From positions 1 through 61,288 of the forward strand of contig JARYLJ010000007.1 in NCBI GenBank assembly GCA_029907705.1: a DNA stretch of 61,288 nt. Direction: 5' to 3'. The stretch comes from Methanomicrobiales archaeon. Lineage in GTDB: Archaea; Halobacteriota; Methanomicrobia; Methanomicrobiales; JACTUA01. The notes beneath the pieces were generated by a model. That model was not told where the DNA came from, made no database searches, and was given only the letters and a program-made list of their open reading frames with translations. Both the position numbers and the translations under genes were made by a program. Positions 34,360 through 49,694 of the stretch are shown piece by piece. The first letter of the stretch is position 1; every line of letters begins with the position of its first letter.

Positions 34360-34376
34360 ATTTTTTTTATTTATTA
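34360..34376 (+). terminator. T-rich terminator after the flavoprotein gene
   Basis: ATTTTTTTTATTTATTA follows the flavoprotein stop by about 35 bases. T-runs of this kind are sufficient for archaeal intrinsic termination. Confidence 0.6.
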
Positions 34377-34394
34377 TATAGACATTATTTTAGG

Positions 34395-34456
34395 ATTAAA
34401 ATTCTATAAAATATTAAAATTCTAAAAATATAGAACAGAAAACTATATATATTTAA
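34395..34456 (+). promoter_or_regulatory. AT-rich promoter with direct repeats
   Basis: The 12-base sequence ATTAAAATTCTA occurs twice, at 34395-34406 and 34413-34424, with starts 18 bases apart. Just downstream is ACTATATATATTTAAT (34443-34458), a strong TATA-like element. The repeats lie where an activator or factor would bind. The downstream gene is the 68-residue hypothetical at 34488, which also has GAGGACTGA as ribosome binding site. Confidence 0.55.
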
Positions 34457-34487
34457 TATTAAATATAATATATCAGGCGAGGACTGA

Positions 34488-41595: not shown

Positions 41596-41608
41596 TTTCC
41601 ACTGGAGA
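41596..41608 (-). other. Mini-ORB-like site upstream of hel308
   Basis: TTTCCACTGGAGA (minus strand TCTCCAGTGGAAA) carries the core dyad of archaeal origin recognition boxes but no G-run follows. It lies in the 129-base gap between the KH-protein gene and hel308, about 3.5 kb from the likely origin. It could be a weak Orc1/Cdc6 site or chance. Confidence 0.4.
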
Positions 41609-41696
41609 TTAAGAAGATCCAAATTCCTGTTAAATCTTTTTTAAATCCATTAGAGAGTCATATGGGATGTTTTCCACAAGAAATTAAGGGGTTGTC

Positions 41697-43859
41697 ATGA
41701 GGGTCGCGGACCTTCCTCTCCCAGAGAGGCTCATCCGGCATTACCACGGGAGGGGTATAGTGGAACTCTACCCCCCGCAGACCGAGTGCATCGCGAGAGG
41801 GGTGCTGGAAGGCAAGAGCCTGCTGATTGCGATCCCCACCGCGAGCGGAAAGACGCTGATCGCGGAGATGGCGATGCATCAGCATGCAGCGAAGGGAGGA
41901 AAGAGCCTGTACATCGTCCCACTCAAGGCGCTCGCGAGCGAGAAGTTCGAAGAGTTTGGAGACAAGGGTCTCAGGGTTGGCCTATCCACAGGGGACTTCG
42001 ACCGGCGAGATGACCGTCTCGGCAGGAACGATATCATTGTCGCCACCTCCGAGAAGGTGGATTCGCTCATCAGGAACAGCACCCCCTGGCTCAGGGAGAT
42101 CACGCTACTCGTCGTGGACGAGATCCATTTGCTGGATGCACCGGGCAGAGGGCCCGCATTGGAGATGGTGATCGCGAAGATGAGACATCAGAAACCGGAT
42201 CTCCAGATCATCGCCCTCTCCGCCACCATCGGTAATCCTGAAGAACTGGGTGGATGGCTCCGGGCGGAGACGGTCGTATCCGAATGGAGGCCGGTGGAGC
42301 TGTATCAGGGAGTCTATTTCAGGGGAAGGATCCAGTTTCACGGACGGGACCGAGCGGTCGAAACGAAATCGCGTTTCGAGGATGTCAACCTCGTGCTGGA
42401 CACGATTAAAGAGGGTGGACAGTGCCTCGTCTTTGTCTCATCGCGCAGGAATGCAGAGTCGCTGGCGGGGAAGGTCGCCTCTGCCCTCGGAGAGGGGAGT
42501 CCGACTCTGCAGGAATGGGCCTCTCGCCTTCAAAAGATGGCGGAGACAGAGGGTGAGAGGAGGCTCGCCGATTGCGTCTTAAACGGAGCCGCATTTCATC
42601 ATGCAGGCCTGAGGCGGGAGGCGAGAGCGATCGTCGAGGCTTGCTTCAGAAGAGGCGAGATCAAATGCATCGTCTCCACCCCCACGCTCGCCGCAGGACT
42701 GAACCTGCCTGCGCGGAGAGTCGTGATCAGGGATCATCACCGGTATCAGAGCGGCGAGGGTATGGTGCCCATACCTGTGATGGAATACCACCAGATGGCA
42801 GGCCGGGCCGGAAGGCCCCACCTTGATCCCTATGGCGAGGCGATCCTCATTGCCAGGTCGCGAGAGGATATTCCTGAACTCTTCAGATGGTTCATTGAAT
42901 CCCCACCAGAGAGGATCAGGTCCAGATGCGCCACGGTCTGGTCGCTATGCTCGCATATACTCTCGATCATCGCCACGCGGTTCGTGAACGACAGGATGGG
43001 CCTGCAGGCCTTTCTGCAGAAGACCTTCTATCACCACCAGAAGGGAGATCCTGAACTCCTGAACGCAATACTGAGAGATTCCCTCGAGTACCTACTCGAG
43101 CATGAGATGATCCTCACACTCGGCGGGCGATATGTCGCGACGGAGTTCGGCACCCTCGTCTCGCGCATATATCTGGATCCGAGGAGCGCGGAACTGATGG
43201 TGGGGATTCTCTCCCGTGCCGAGGCTTTCTCGACCCTTGGATTCCTGCAAATGATCTGTTCCACCCCTGATATGCCCACCCTCTCACTCAGAAGGGGAGA
43301 CGAGGTACTCTGCGAGCGTGCAGTGATGAGCATGGGAGATGAACTATGGGTGGAGATGCCGCTCTATGGGGGCGGTGGCAATCCGGAGAGTTACTTCCGA
43401 AGCCTGAAGACTGCGATGCTACTGTATGATTGGGTGGAGGAAGCAGGGGAGGCGATCATATGCGAGCGTTACAGCGTGGGACCCGGTGATATTCATACGA
43501 TGGTGGAGAGCGTTGCATGGCTCATCCATGCAGCAGGCAGGCTCGCACACATGTTCGCGAAGCACATGTTTCCAGAGATAGAGGCGATGGAGCTCAGGAT
43601 CAGATACGGCGTGAAAAGGGAGCTCCTGCCGCTCGTCAGACTGAAGGGGATCGGCAGGGTGCGCGCGAGGCGGTTATTCAACAATGGCATTGCCGATATA
43701 TCGGCCCTGAGGGCCGCCGGCATCGCGGGCGTAACACCTATACTCGGGGCCGGTCTTGCACGCCAGGTGTTCTCGCAGCTGGATGGTCAGGAGGTCGATG
43801 AGGAGTCAGGAGGGTTGCAGACCACATGGGAGGATTATCCGGAGATGCGAAATGGATGA
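41697..43859 (+). CDS. hel308: Hel308 DNA helicase
   Basis: Hel308 is a 3'-5' superfamily 2 helicase for stalled replication forks. The 720-residue protein shows the Q-type/Walker A region LIAIPTASGKTLIAEMAM, VVDEIHLLDAPGRG (DEIH box), ALSATIGNPEELGGWL, FHHAGLRREARAIVEA and the arginine-finger QMAGRAGRPHLDPYG. The C-terminus contains the ratchet and helix-hairpin-helix part (LVRLKGIGRVRARRLFNNGI). The final eight bases overlap the Cgi121 gene, a pairing seen in several euryarchaea. The T-rich TTTTTTAAATCC stretch near 41636-41647 may hold its promoter. Confidence 0.95.
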   Translation: MRVADLPLPERLIRHYHGRGIVELYPPQTECIARGVLEGKSLLIAIPTASGKTLIAEMAMHQHAAKGGKSLYIVPLKALASEKFEEFGDKGLRVGLSTGDFDRRDDRLGRNDIIVATSEKVDSLIRNSTPWLREITLLVVDEIHLLDAPGRGPALEMVIAKMRHQKPDLQIIALSATIGNPEELGGWLRAETVVSEWRPVELYQGVYFRGRIQFHGRDRAVETKSRFEDVNLVLDTIKEGGQCLVFVSSRRNAESLAGKVASALGEGSPTLQEWASRLQKMAETEGERRLADCVLNGAAFHHAGLRREARAIVEACFRRGEIKCIVSTPTLAAGLNLPARRVVIRDHHRYQSGEGMVPIPVMEYHQMAGRAGRPHLDPYGEAILIARSREDIPELFRWFIESPPERIRSRCATVWSLCSHILSIIATRFVNDRMGLQAFLQKTFYHHQKGDPELLNAILRDSLEYLLEHEMILTLGGRYVATEFGTLVSRIYLDPRSAELMVGILSRAEAFSTLGFLQMICSTPDMPTLSLRRGDEVLCERAVMSMGDELWVEMPLYGGGGNPESYFRSLKTAMLLYDWVEEAGEAIICERYSVGPGDIHTMVESVAWLIHAAGRLAHMFAKHMFPEIEAMELRIRYGVKRELLPLVRLKGIGRVRARRLFNNGIADISALRAAGIAGVTPILGAGLARQVFSQLDGQEVDEESGGLQTTWEDYPEMRNG

Positions 43860-44380: not shown

Positions 44381-44878
44381 TCAGACCTGCCTGCGCACAT
44401 GCGCGAGAATGTGCCCTGCCTCCGGAGCGATCAGCCTTTCAGTCGCGAGTTTCGCCGCACCGGGCGAACCTGGAATGCAGAAGATCACTCTGCCGGCGAG
44501 GGTGCCGGCGATCGCCCGCGAGAGCATGGCGGCAGTACCTATCTCCTGATAGCTCATCCACCTGAAGAGCTCTCCGAAGCCATCGATGGTCTTCTCCAGC
44601 AGCGGTGAGATTGCCTCGGTTGTGCAATCGTCTTTGGTCAGACCCGTGCCCCCGCAGAAGATGAGGAGGTCTGCATCCTCCATTGCGCTCTTCAGGGTGG
44701 TGCAGATCTCCTCGATATCGTCTCGGATTACCCTGGTAAAAGAGATGCTGATCCCTTTTTGCGTGAGTATCTCTCTGATGGCCCTGCCGCTCTCGTCTGT
44801 CTTTGGGGTTCTGGAGGATGAAACGGTGATCACCGCCGCGTTTATCTTCATTTCACTATTCTGTACGTGTGGCATCTC
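44381..44878 (-). CDS. moaB: MoaB/MogA-type molybdopterin adenylyltransferase
   Basis: MoaB/MogA-type proteins activate molybdopterin by adenylylation before metal insertion. The 165-residue product has NAAVITVSSSRTPKTDESG, DADLLIFCGGTGLTKDDCTT, FGELFRWMSYQEIGTAAML and VIFCIPGSPGAAKLATERLI, all family signatures including GGTG and PGSPGA. ATG 44878 (PHVQNSEMKIN) or 44851 are the likely starts; the frame is open to 44995 without homologous residues. Its 5' end faces the origin region. In a methanogen-like archaeon it would serve Mo/W enzymes such as formylmethanofuran dehydrogenase. Confidence 0.9.
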   Translation of the reverse strand, partial: EMPHVQNSEMKINAAVITVSSSRTPKTDESGRAIREILTQKGISISFTRVIRDDIEEICTTLKSAMEDADLLIFCGGTGLTKDDCTTEAISPLLEKTIDGFGELFRWMSYQEIGTAAMLSRAIAGTLAGRVIFCIPGSPGAAKLATERLIAPEAGHILAHVRRQV

Positions 44879-45002
44879 TGGTACAGGTGTCTTCGTGGAG
44901 GAAAAAGTTATTTCCAAACCACAATCCTGTGGCTGCCTCGATTTCTCTGACGGGTGATGCAAAAACCCCGAATGATAGATCCTATCGTATTCCATGACAC
45001 CT

Positions 45003-45024
45003 ACCCTTTGATTTCCAGTGGAAC
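45003..45024 (-). other. Origin recognition box (left, inverted)
   Basis: On the + strand ACCCTTTGATTTCCAGTGGAAC. Read on the minus strand it is a TTCCACTGGAA dyad followed by a CAAAGGGT G-run, the layout of archaeal ORB elements bound by Orc1/Cdc6. Its G-run points away from the AT-rich stretch, opposite to the box at 45175. The G-run has three Gs rather than four, so it is a slightly degenerate copy. Confidence 0.7.
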
Positions 45025-45174
45025 TCTCAATCGGTGATCAAAGGCTTGCCTGTTTGTTTACGATTGTAATTAATAAATAAAAATTAAATAAAAATATTTA
45101 TATATTATTTATATTATATTAGCCATTGAATAAAAATATGTTAATTTCAATCTATCCAAAGATAGATTCACCAC

Positions 45175-45197
45175 CTTCCAGTGGAAACAAAGGGGTC
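45175..45197 (+). other. Origin recognition box (right, full consensus)
   Basis: The site is CTTCCAGTGGAAACAAAGGG followed by GTC. It matches the euryarchaeal ORB consensus at essentially every position: the imperfect dyad, the ACAAA spacer and the GGGG run. It is the best ORB in the window. The next bases extend it into GGGG-TCT-CCCC (45192-45202), an additional short inverted repeat. Confidence 0.85.
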
Positions 45198-45202
45198 TCC
45201 CC

Positions 45203-45411
45203 ATTTTAAACATAAACAGCATTACCATGGTATTCACCTCTCTCCCCTCAAAAACCCTTTATTATGCCCAATCCCCTGGATCTTCAATTATAACCCCCAA
45301 TCAATGCTGTCTATTTGGAGAGTCGCCATCTTATAAATCAACATAAAGCGATGGCATTATCTACTGAAGGTACGATATCAAGAATCCCCATGGACTGTTG
45401 CAGGTGATTGG
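45203..45411. promoter_or_regulatory. Upstream region and promoter of orc1/cdc6
   Basis: CTTATAAATC at 45330-45339 is a good TATA element. Initiation near 45357-45365 would leave a leader of about 50 bases before ATG 45412, with GGTGATT as ribosome binding site. Closeness to the ORBs suggests that Orc1 may affect its own transcription. I saw no other gene here. Confidence 0.6.
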
Positions 45412-46710
45412 ATGCCGGAAGAAGGAAGTTCAGCGCTCGGTCTTTTTCAACGATACATCGCCAATAAAAATATATTCAAGAACCGGGAGGTGCTCCGCCA
45501 TACATACCGCCCTTCGATCCTCCCACACCGTCTCCCTCAGATAAATTCAATTGCGAGCATCCTCGCACCTGCACTGAAAAGAGAGACCCCCTCCAACATC
45601 CTGATATATGGAAAGACTGGCACGGGAAAGACCGCTTCTGTGAGGTACGTAGGATCAGAGCTGGAGAAGGCAGGAAGGGAGATTGGCCACGCATGTCGGG
45701 TGATCCATCTGAATTGTGAGGTGATCGACACACAGTATCGCGTCCTTGCGCAGATCGCGAACTGTCTGGAGGAGGAGGAGGCCGGAAGCGAAAAGATGAA
45801 ATCAGGCATCCCATTCACCGGATGGCCCACGGATCAGGTGTACTCAGAGCTGAAGAACCAGCTGGAGGCCTCGGGAGGGGTACTGGTGATCGTTCTTGAC
45901 GAGATCGATAAGCTGGTGAAGAAGAGCGGAGACGAAACACTGTATAATCTGACGAGGATCAACTCGGAGCTGAACAGTTCGAGGGTGAGCATTATTGGCA
46001 TCTCCAACGATCTCAGGTTTACCGACTTCCTCGATCCAAGGGTGCTCTCGTCCCTATCCGAGGAGGAGATCGTTTTCCCGCCATACGATGCGAATCAGCT
46101 CTGCGACATCCTCAGGCAGAGGGCGGAGGACGCCTTCATGGAGAACGCGCTGGAGGAGGGAGTAATTCCATTATGTGCAGCGCTCGCCGCGCAGGAACAC
46201 GGAGACGCCAGGCGTGCACTCGATCTCCTGCGTGTTGCCGGAGAACTGGCTGACCGGGAGAATACGGAGAAGGTGACCGAGCGGCATGTGAAGATGGCAC
46301 AGGATAAGATCGAAACGGACAGTCTGATCGAATGCGTCTCCACCCTCCCCACGCAGAGCAAGGCCGTCCTCTACGCGATGCTGCTGATGAAGAATGCGGG
46401 CAGACAGGTCTTCACCAGTGGTGAGGTCGTCCAGGTCTACCGTGATCTGGCGCAGACGCTCGATCTGGATATCCTGACCCCACGCCGGATCACGGATCTC
46501 ATCTCCGAGTTGAACATGCTGGGCGTCGTCAGCACACGAGTGGTGAGCAGGGGGCGGTACGGAAGGACGAAAGAGATATCAATGGAAGGCAGCATGGCAC
46601 AGATCTCAGAGGTCCTGTCGAAGGACCGGCGTTTCAAAGAGCAAAGTATGATGCTGCCGAGTATCAATCAGATGAAGAGTGTAAGCCAGATGAAGGGATT
46701 CTTCAGGTGA
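45412..46710 (+). CDS. orc1: Origin-binding initiator Orc1/Cdc6
   Basis: The archaeal initiator binds ORBs and loads MCM. The 432-residue AAA+ protein has an IYGKTGTGKTASVRYVGSE Walker A, VIVLDEIDKLVKKSGDETLY Walker B with sensor GISNDLRF (sensor 1), GDARRALDLLRVAGELA (sensor 2) and a C-terminal winged helix of the Cdc6_C type (ELNMLGVVSTRVVSRGRYGR). The N-terminus carries FKNREVLRHTYRPSILPHR. It lies directly beside the ORB pair and is followed within five bases by an Lrp regulator and aminotransferase, probably cotranscribed. Confidence 0.96.
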   Translation: MPEEGSSALGLFQRYIANKNIFKNREVLRHTYRPSILPHRLPQINSIASILAPALKRETPSNILIYGKTGTGKTASVRYVGSELEKAGREIGHACRVIHLNCEVIDTQYRVLAQIANCLEEEEAGSEKMKSGIPFTGWPTDQVYSELKNQLEASGGVLVIVLDEIDKLVKKSGDETLYNLTRINSELNSSRVSIIGISNDLRFTDFLDPRVLSSLSEEEIVFPPYDANQLCDILRQRAEDAFMENALEEGVIPLCAALAAQEHGDARRALDLLRVAGELADRENTEKVTERHVKMAQDKIETDSLIECVSTLPTQSKAVLYAMLLMKNAGRQVFTSGEVVQVYRDLAQTLDLDILTPRRITDLISELNMLGVVSTRVVSRGRYGRTKEISMEGSMAQISEVLSKDRRFKEQSMMLPSINQMKSVSQMKGFFR

Positions 46711-46714
46711 ATTT

Positions 46715-47206
46715 ATGGACGAGACAGACAGAAGCATCCTGGAGCTCCTGGTGGAGAATGCCAGGATTACAGATACCGACATGGCCACCATGCTGGGTAT
46801 ACCAGAGGGTGAGATAAGGTCACGAATCGACAGGCTGCAGAAGGAGAAGGTGATTCGGAAGTTCACTGCCGTCGTGGACTGGGAGAGGGTTGGAGATGGC
46901 GGGGTATCCGCGATCATCGATCTGAAGGTCGCTCCGGAACGGGATTTCGGATACGACAGGGTCGCCGAAAGAATCTCCAGATTCAGGCAGGTGAAATCGC
47001 TGCGTCTGGTCTCTGGCGTCTACGACCTGCAACTCCACGTCACAGGAAAAACGATGAAGGAAGTCGCACGTTTCGTCGCAGAGCAGATCGCCCCCATACA
47101 GAATATCCGGGAGACCGCCACCCATATCATCATGAAGACATACAAGGAGAACGGCATTCCATTCCACGAAAGGGAAATGGCGGAACGACTACCAATCACG
47201 ATGTAG
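46715..47206 (+). CDS. Lrp/AsnC-family transcriptional regulator
   Basis: A 163-residue Lrp-type regulator. The N-terminal helix-turn-helix is ILELLVENARITDTDMATML with IPEGEIRSRIDRLQKEKVIR, and the C-terminal RAM effector domain includes SAIIDLKVAPERDFGYDRVA and VYDLQLHVTGKTMKEVARFV. Such proteins sense amino acids. The next gene, an aminotransferase, begins eight bases later, and this regulator-aminotransferase pairing is common in archaea, so it probably controls or reports on the aminotransferase's substrate. Confidence 0.92.
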   Translation: MDETDRSILELLVENARITDTDMATMLGIPEGEIRSRIDRLQKEKVIRKFTAVVDWERVGDGGVSAIIDLKVAPERDFGYDRVAERISRFRQVKSLRLVSGVYDLQLHVTGKTMKEVARFVAEQIAPIQNIRETATHIIMKTYKENGIPFHEREMAERLPITM

Positions 47207-47214
47207 GTGGCCGA

Positions 47215-48369
47215 ATGCGGGGTTTTATCTCGGAGAGGGCGCAACGTATTCCACCCTCTGGGATCAGAAAGTTCTTCGATCTCCTCCTTACGATGGAGGA
47301 AGTGATCTCCCTTGGAGTCGGAGAACCCGATTTCAGCACCCCGTGGGGTGTTTCGGAGGCGGGCATATATGCAATAGAGCAGGGGCACACTTCCTACACC
47401 TCCAACAAAGGACTTCTAACGCTCCGCGAACTCGTATCGCGCAACCTGAAGAGACGTTACAAACTCCAGTACGACCCTCACGAGGAGATCATCATTACCA
47501 GCGGGGTGAGCGAGGCCGTTGATATCGCGCTCAGAGCGGTGGTGGATCCGATGGACGAGGTGCTGGTGGCCGAGCCCAGCTATGTGGCATACTCACCATG
47601 CGTCACACTCGCAGGCGGGGTACCGGTTCCGGTTCGGTGCATGCAGGCAGACGGATTCAGGTTGAAAGCAGATATGCTGATGGAGCAGATCACCCCGAGG
47701 ACGAAGGCACTCATGATCAACTTCCCCAACAATCCTTCAGGAGCCGTTATGAGGAGGCAGGACCTGAAGGAGATCGCAGATGTGATCATCGACCATGATC
47801 TCCTCGTCATCAGCGACGAGGTGTATTCGGAGCTCAACTACAGTGGTGACCACACATCGATTGCGTCGCTGGACGGTATGAAGGAGAGGACGATCACGCT
47901 GAACGGGTTCTCCAAGGCCTATTCGATGACCGGCTGGAGGGTCGGATACCTCTGTGCACCCGCGGAGATCTGTGGCGCCGCCCTCAAGATCCATCAGTAC
48001 GTCATGCTCTGTGCCCCCATCATGGGTCAGATCGCTGCTATCGAAGCACTGAAGAACGGGGAAGAGGACAAGAACCGGATGGTGAGGGAGTACCGGATGA
48101 GGCGGAATCTGTTCATTGCCGGTCTGAATCGGATCGGCCTCTCCTGCCATATGCCGGAGGGGGCATTCTATGCCTTTCCTTCGGTTGAATCGACCGGTCT
48201 GGACGATGTGCTGTTTGCAGAACGGCTGCTCGCAGAGAAGCATGTCGCGGTTGTGCCTGGCTCCGTCTTCGGTGAGGCGGGAAGAGATCATATCCGCTGC
48301 GCGTATGCAGTCTCCAGAGAGGATCTGAAGGAAGCGCTGGAGCGGATGGAAGCATTCATTTCCGCCTGA
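47215..48369 (+). CDS. Class I/II PLP-dependent aminotransferase
   Basis: A 384-residue aspartate-aminotransferase-fold enzyme. Landmarks: EVISLGVGEPDFSTPWGVSE, YTSNKGLLTLRELVSRNLKR, INFPNNPSGAVMRRQDL (PLP contact), VISDEVYSELNY (Asp and Tyr of the PLP pocket) and the PLP-lysine loop TLNGFSKAYSMTGWRVGYL. The substrate could be aspartate/tyrosine or aromatic amino acids; related archaeal enzymes are often generic or MfnC-like. It follows an Lrp regulator by eight bases. The gene ends 31 bases before an ORB-like site. Confidence 0.93.
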   Translation: MRGFISERAQRIPPSGIRKFFDLLLTMEEVISLGVGEPDFSTPWGVSEAGIYAIEQGHTSYTSNKGLLTLRELVSRNLKRRYKLQYDPHEEIIITSGVSEAVDIALRAVVDPMDEVLVAEPSYVAYSPCVTLAGGVPVPVRCMQADGFRLKADMLMEQITPRTKALMINFPNNPSGAVMRRQDLKEIADVIIDHDLLVISDEVYSELNYSGDHTSIASLDGMKERTITLNGFSKAYSMTGWRVGYLCAPAEICGAALKIHQYVMLCAPIMGQIAAIEALKNGEEDKNRMVREYRMRRNLFIAGLNRIGLSCHMPEGAFYAFPSVESTGLDDVLFAERLLAEKHVAVVPGSVFGEAGRDHIRCAYAVSREDLKEALERMEAFISA

Positions 48370-48683
48370 AAGCAGGTTCGGAGAAGTAACGGATCTTCGT
48401 ACCCCTTTATTTCCACTGGAAAAACGTCAGACATCTGTCATCCTTCGTGCGATCAGATCATAATTTTTATATCACATCGATCGAAATGACCGCTACACTC
48501 ACCAATCGAGCACATCTCTCGTGTTTTTTCTGAAGATCGTCAATCCCTTCAAGGGCGGCAGGCGAACGGATCGCGGCGAGCAACGGATTCGGAGCGCAAA
48601 AAATCCACAAAGGCCTGTTTAAAAGAATGAAAGGGATGATAAAAATTTATTGCCTCCATCGCCACACATACGTTGGTTAAGCA
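48370..48683. other. Intergenic stretch with an ORB and the purA promoter
   Basis: A 314-base gap without a gene. It contains the ORB-like site at 48401-48422 and, at 48639-48652, GATAAAAATTTATT, a likely TATA region of purA with initiation near 48670. No hairpin terminator is obvious after the aminotransferase. Confidence 0.55.
48401..48422 (-). other. ORB-like site downstream of the aminotransferase
   Basis: On the + strand ACCCCTTTATTTCCACTGGA and two more A. On the minus strand this is TTCCAGTGGAAATAAAGGGG and T, which contains the ORB dyad and a four-G run. It differs from the consensus only in the spacer (AATAAA instead of ACAAA-type). It lies 3.2 kb from the AT-rich origin core, on the far side of orc1, so it may be an accessory Orc1/Cdc6 site. 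Confidence 0.65.
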
Positions 48684-49694
48684 ATGTCATGTACGATTAT
48701 CGTTGGCGGATTCTTCGGAGACGAGGGAAAGGGTAAGATAGTGGCCCACATTGCGATGAAGGATCGACCCGTTATCATCTCGCGGGGGGGCGTCGGCCCG
48801 AATGCGGGGCATACGGTTACCGTCGACGCCCATGCATACGGCGTCAGGATGGTTCCTTCTGGCTTTGTGTACCCGGATGCGAGGCTCATGATCGGCAGTG
48901 GCGTACTCCTCGATCCACGGGTATTTCTGCGGGAGGTCGAGGCGCTGAAGGTGAAAGACCGAATTTTCGTCGATAAAAGGTGCGGTGTGATCGAGGCACA
49001 CCATATAGAAAGGGATCGGGGGAGCGACCACCTCTCCAAGAAGATAGGCACGACTGGTACCGGTTGCGGTCCGGCAAACGCGGACCGCGTGCTCCGGGTG
49101 GCAAAGCAGGCAAAAGATCTGCCTGAGCTGGCCGGGTATCTGGCCGATGTCCCCCTCGAGATCAACCACGCCCTCGATGCAGGCGATCGAGTGATACTCG
49201 AGGGTTCCCAGGGCTTCGGTATCTCGCTGTATTTCGGCACATACCCGTTTGTCACGAGCAAGGATACTTCCGCATCACAGGTCGCGGCTGACAATGGCGT
49301 GGGCCCCACCCGTGTGGACGAGGTGATTGTTGTCTTCAAGGCGTATCCAACGAGGGTGGGTGAGGGCCCCTTCTCCACCGAGATGGCACCCGATATGTCG
49401 AAGACGCTCGGGATCGAGGAGTTCGGAACGGTCACACACAGGCCCAGGCGAATCGGTACCTGGGACGGGGAGATGGCGCGTTACGCCGCGATGATAAATG
49501 GATGCACTCAGGCAGCGATCACGGGAATCGATCGAGTGGATACGGCCTGTCTGGGAAAGACGAAATACAGTGAACTGACTGAGAAGGCGAAGAGGTTCAT
49601 CGACGCAGCAGAGAAAGACATCGGAGCGCCGGTTACCCTGATCTCCACAGGCCCCGATATCGATCACATCATCGACCTTCGGAGTGAGATATGA
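48684..49694 (+). CDS. purA: Adenylosuccinate synthetase
   Basis: PurA converts IMP and aspartate to adenylosuccinate with GTP. The 336-residue protein is the shorter archaeal form. It opens IIVGGFFGDEGKGKIVAHI (GTP loop and catalytic Asp), has GGVGPNAGHTVTVDAHAYG, IGTTGTGCGPANADRV, ILEGSQGFGISLYFGTYPFV and GVGPTRVDEVIVVFKAYPTR. Key residues are in place. It overlaps the trm112 start by four bases and heads an overlapping chain of five or more genes. Confidence 0.95.
   Translation: MSCTIIVGGFFGDEGKGKIVAHIAMKDRPVIISRGGVGPNAGHTVTVDAHAYGVRMVPSGFVYPDARLMIGSGVLLDPRVFLREVEALKVKDRIFVDKRCGVIEAHHIERDRGSDHLSKKIGTTGTGCGPANADRVLRVAKQAKDLPELAGYLADVPLEINHALDAGDRVILEGSQGFGISLYFGTYPFVTSKDTSASQVAADNGVGPTRVDEVIVVFKAYPTRVGEGPFSTEMAPDMSKTLGIEEFGTVTHRPRRIGTWDGEMARYAAMINGCTQAAITGIDRVDTACLGKTKYSELTEKAKRFIDAAEKDIGAPVTLISTGPDIDHIIDLRSEI

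Follow-up and report, generated by a model that had tools for sequence, protein, structure and literature searches.

A probable chromosomal replication origin between moaB and orc1/cdc6 in a Methanomicrobiales archaeon, with further origin recognition boxes at neighbouring genes

Where does chromosome replication begin in this uncultured methanogen lineage? The Methanomicrobiales archaeon studied here is represented by a 1.79-Mb draft genome (98.9% complete) in 70 unordered contigs, and the stretch of DNA that we analysed (the window, 61,288 nucleotides) is the entire contig C39. Judging from the sequence, the gap in this window between a moaB-like gene and the initiator gene orc1/cdc6 (about 44996–45411) is very probably the chromosomal origin of this archaeon, which would fix a likely origin for the lineage. 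This assignment draws on the origin recognition boxes (ORBs) of the gap, their orientation and genome-wide uniqueness, the AT-rich spacer that separates them, the family of the adjacent initiator and the conservation of the whole arrangement.

We identified two ORBs in opposite orientation within the gap: ORB-L at 45003–45024 on the reverse strand (sequence TTCCACTGGAAATCAAAGGGT at 45003–45023) and ORB-R at 45175–45196 on the forward strand (sequence TTCCAGTGGAAACAAAGGGGT at 45176–45196). Scored with an ORB matrix derived from 447 sites of relatives, with the genome itself left out, these boxes gave p values of 1.5e-10 and 1.3e-12, respectively, absolute values that are somewhat flattering because the training sites came from the orc1 loci compared below. 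ORB-R is an exact match to the Methanomicrobia ORB motif of Ori-Finder 2/DoriC, TCCA[GC]T[GT]GAAA[CT][AG]A[AT]GGGGT (PMC4164010), and ORB-L differs from this motif at two positions. The interval between the boxes has an AT content of 78% and includes the 60-bp segment with the highest AT content in the window (45062–45121, 97% AT), the presumed duplex-unwinding element; the G-strings of both boxes face outward, away from it. The gene orc1/cdc6 begins at 45412, directly 3' of the box pair and spacer. The preliminary description had claimed two inverted ORBs flanking an AT-rich stretch immediately upstream of orc1/cdc6, with the right box close to consensus, and our analysis confirmed each of these elements.

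The gap is bounded on the left by the moaB-like gene (44381–44995, reverse strand; TIGR00177, 113 bits), whose true start may be internal, for example at 44935, and on the right by orc1/cdc6 (45412–46710, forward strand; 432 amino acids). The encoded Orc1 is an ORC1-type initiator scoring well above the curated cut-off (NF001625, 601.7 bits; TIGR02928, 455 bits). It is closest to that of the Methanomicrobiales isolate OWC_0064 (77–78%) and stands at about 68–75% to those of Methanoculleus, Methanolinea, Methanoregula and others, which places the genome in this order of methanogens. Among solved structures, the nearest relatives of Orc1 are 2qby_A (Sulfolobus Orc1-1) and 2v1u_A (Aeropyrum ORC1), which we take to be archaeal Orc1 structures solved on ORB or origin DNA. 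On the same strand follow a syntenic gene for an Lrp/AsnC-type regulator (46715–47206), an aspC-like aminotransferase gene, also at a conserved position (47215–48369; named from its translation), and purA, encoding adenylosuccinate synthetase (48684–49694; named from its translation and syntenic in most relatives). A further very AT-rich stretch of the window, at 34366–34465 (90% over 100 bp), has no strong ORB-matrix match nearby.

Inverted ORBs, an AT-rich spacer and an initiator-type Orc1 together form the layout of established archaeal origins, which supports the origin reading first put forward in the preliminary description. By analogy with established archaeal work, we infer that Orc1 from the neighbouring gene would bind ORB-L and ORB-R, with the winged helix contacting the dyad and the AAA+ domain contacting the G-string, and would distort and open the AT-rich stretch between the boxes; it would then load MCM, and forks would depart both ways. 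This origin architecture is textbook material (PMC4010727), and since the motif also equals the published ORB, the origin itself is of a known kind. Siting next to cdc6 is likewise a criterion of Ori-Finder 2 and DoriC (PMC4164010). The oriC1-cdc6A origin of Haloarcula hispanica is similarly built: it precedes its initiator gene and has an AT-rich stretch enclosed by a pair of inverted ORBs whose G-strings point outward (PMC3936714). However, the G-string has three to four G here as opposed to the long halophile form of haloarchaeal oriC1, and the inner G-rich inverted repeat of the haloarchaeal origin is not seen (PMC3936714): none lies just inside the ORBs among the repeats in 44880–45450.

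Searched across all 1.79 Mb of the genome, the strict ORB pattern TTCCASTGGAAANNAARGGG is matched exactly at three positions, against an estimated chance expectation of about 2e-4, and all three are in the window's contig. They are ORB-L, ORB-R and a third full ORB, ORB-D, in the aspC-purA gap (48401–48422, reverse strand). ORB-D and a weaker box before hel308, ORB-H (41671–41692, forward strand), had both been overlooked in the preliminary description. The bare 11-base core TCCASTGGAAA occurs at four places, again all in this contig; the fourth is an ORB-like dyad lacking a G-string and resembling a mini-ORB (41597–41607, in the KH-hel308 gap), which may be due to chance. Searches with the strict pattern and the bare core identified no other ORB cluster in the genome, and the best of the matches elsewhere with three mismatches reached p = 5e-7, near chance for a genome of this size.

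The origin layout is conserved in about 100 relatives. For this comparison we assembled 108 distinct Methanomicrobiales orc1 loci from two sources, 70 of which cover the whole span, and counted matrix matches at p < 1e-7 per kb across the 108 loci. ORB density was 2.9 per kb in the moaB-orc1 gap, 6.3 per kb in the last 150 bp before orc1, 4.5 per kb before hel308 and 1.55 per kb in the aspC-purA gap, as opposed to 0.005 per kb everywhere else in the loci (seven matches in 1.28 Mb). The left box is present in 67 of the 70 complete loci, the right box in 69, a box at the orc1 promoter in 61, the hel308 box in 49 and the downstream box in 36, although the compared loci are kin and these counts are not independent events. 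Wherever relatives have both boxes, their order is the same, the left box preceding the orc1-proximal right box in 89/89 loci, with G-strings outward, and the AT content of the interval between them exceeds that of the orc1 gene in 87/88. When up to two mismatches were allowed, almost every ORB in 11 complete relatives fell at the orc1 locus, with a few solitary ones elsewhere, and the reversed ORB pattern, used as a control, gave zero matches in these 11 genomes; neither this control nor the comparison with the remaining sequence of the 108 loci is affected by the matrix-training weakness. Beyond the order, orc1 loci often retain a left box (reverse strand) and right boxes (forward strand) upstream of orc1, indicating that the origin is old. 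With the layout shared throughout the order, tests can be carried out in a single cultured relative.

A second, divergent orc1/cdc6 is located on contig C47 (L048, 2191–3315), next to mch. It could mark a second, different origin with an unrelated box type, in which case the moaB-orc1 gap would be one of two. We consider this unlikely, even though a second copy is present in most relatives, with mch also as its neighbour in at least one of them (G038, L346), and different haloarchaeal cdc6 genes are paired with distinct types of ORB (PMC4010727). A competing orc1/cdc6 with stronger ORBs, a possibility raised in the preliminary description, was sought, but no ORB-like site was found near the C47 gene, and the gap upstream of this gene is short and, by eye, not AT-rich. 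We also sampled GC skew in three complete relatives, taking 20 stretches of 20 kb in each. Each relative had more positive skew on the right side of orc1 than on the left (p = 0.03, 0.16 and 0.01), a weak signal, and the split at orc1 ranked first, second and third of 20 rotations and highest in the sum over the three. The sampled skew thus weakly favours an origin at orc1. Within the window itself, GC skew follows gene direction by eye.

ORB-D has the best matrix score of all (p = 3e-14, subject to the same flattery) and is identical to the published Methanomicrobia ORB. The downstream region carries this one ORB here and up to four in relatives; those of Methanoculleus (e.g., L091, L092 and L105) are usually two inverted boxes separated by about 216 bp. 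We considered ORB-D as a second origin and rejected it, as the interval between the reverse- and forward-strand downstream boxes of relatives is only 39–48% AT, unlike the unwinding site. The forward-strand downstream box was also considered as part of a tRNA, but no tRNA was found there. In H. hispanica, an ORB-rich region downstream of oriC2, oriC2D, restrains that origin, likely by titration (PMC3936714). The likeness of ORB-D to oriC2D is one of position only, in that ORBs lie beyond the initiator gene and apart from the unwinding region; oriC2D has 11 ORBs in one gap (PMC3936714), whereas here a single box, or two to four in some relatives, follows a three-gene run.

ORB-H (p = 5e-10 in the same matrix) ends 4 nt before the start codon of the hel308 helicase gene (41697–43859, forward strand; NF002654, 979 bits). 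Across the 49 complete loci with such an element, it lies 26 nt before the hel308 start in most relatives and 32–47 nt before it in the others, and its separation from orc1 ranges between about 3.7 and about 11 kb. Spacing that is fixed to the hel308 start and variable to orc1 suggests that hel308, and not the origin, explains the place of this box. The left half of its dyad is degenerate, but the right half and the G-string are not. No such box was found in 23 hel308 loci outside the order, where hel308 is mostly far from orc1 in the genomes whose coordinates were compared, nor in the three same-family genomes checked (G001, G003 and G005). In the group at –26, the GGGGT of the box is close enough to the hel308 ATG to overlap a Shine-Dalgarno sequence. 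We considered a mere Shine-Dalgarno run as its explanation, and rejected it since the dyad half is also conserved and, in the groups at –39 to –47, the GGGGT is too far upstream. The oriC of Pyrococcus and other Thermococcales carries both ORBs and mini-ORBs close to cdc6 and DP1 (PMC2643942). These origins share with the present locus the combination of an ORB and additional boxes at a neighbouring replication gene, although the extra boxes are reported to lie within the DP1 gene there (PMC2643942) and are before hel308 here.

In most relatives, an ORB also abuts the TATA region of orc1. This box is missing here (45312–45340), whereas the TATA-like box remains (CTTATAAATC, 45330–45339, forward strand). 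An A/T run of at least six bases follows the G-string in 59% of promoter boxes versus 8–18% of the other box classes. Since relatives also have ORB-like boxes next to the orc1 TATA box and ahead of hel308, ORBs in this order are not confined to the unwinding site, and on this basis the boxes could be chiefly operators through which Orc1 controls transcription of orc1 and moaB, with replication initiating at another site or at no fixed site. In Thermococcus kodakarensis, Cdc6 and the presumed origin are reported to be dispensable (PMC5663688), and to that extent conserved anatomy is no proof of use. We nevertheless regard a chiefly operator role as very improbable: nearly all loci, and often those across the phylum, preserve two inverted boxes with an AT-rich spacer in between, the genome has no other ORB cluster and the sampled skew of relatives agrees weakly with an origin. 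That the ORB matches are chance or compositional noise, given the imperfect ORB-L and the frequency of AT-rich gaps before genes, is refuted by their uniqueness in the genome, an expected count far below one and the conserved order and orientation.

With the moaB-orc1 gap taken as the origin, the most likely role for ORB-D, ORB-H and the orc1-promoter box of relatives is that of additional binding sites for Orc1, serving to titrate it or to regulate adjacent genes. Based on box positions, we regard it as plausible, though less likely than not, that Methanomicrobiales Orc1 is also a local transcription regulator, acting through boxes at its own TATA region and before the hel308 start, in the way that bacterial DnaA regulates dnaA. 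If so, the supply of the initiator and of Hel308, a fork-repair helicase, would be tied to the amount of free Orc1, and the present genome would have lost the autoregulatory box and kept the hel308 box. In our search of the open-licence literature, we encountered no description of ORBs preceding hel308 or lying on the TATA region of orc1, and none of a canonical archaeal initiator doubling as a gene regulator; the accessible part of the Ori-Finder 2/DoriC description likewise makes no mention of hel308- or TATA-linked boxes (PMC4164010). The conserved orc1 TATA and hel308 boxes offer a concrete case of an archaeal initiator possibly doubling in this way.

Finally, several solitary, good ORBs were observed far from orc1 in complete relatives, at L346 4896, L347 3089, L348 2974 and L349 3058. 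In L347 and L349, the G-string of the solitary box is followed by a TATA-like run (TATAAAAG and TATACATAT, respectively). In addition, an ORB variant, TTCCTGTGGAAACGAAGGG[AG]T, is repeated at four places in genome G019, including L350 2800 and L351 2048, and is perhaps part of a dispersed repeat.
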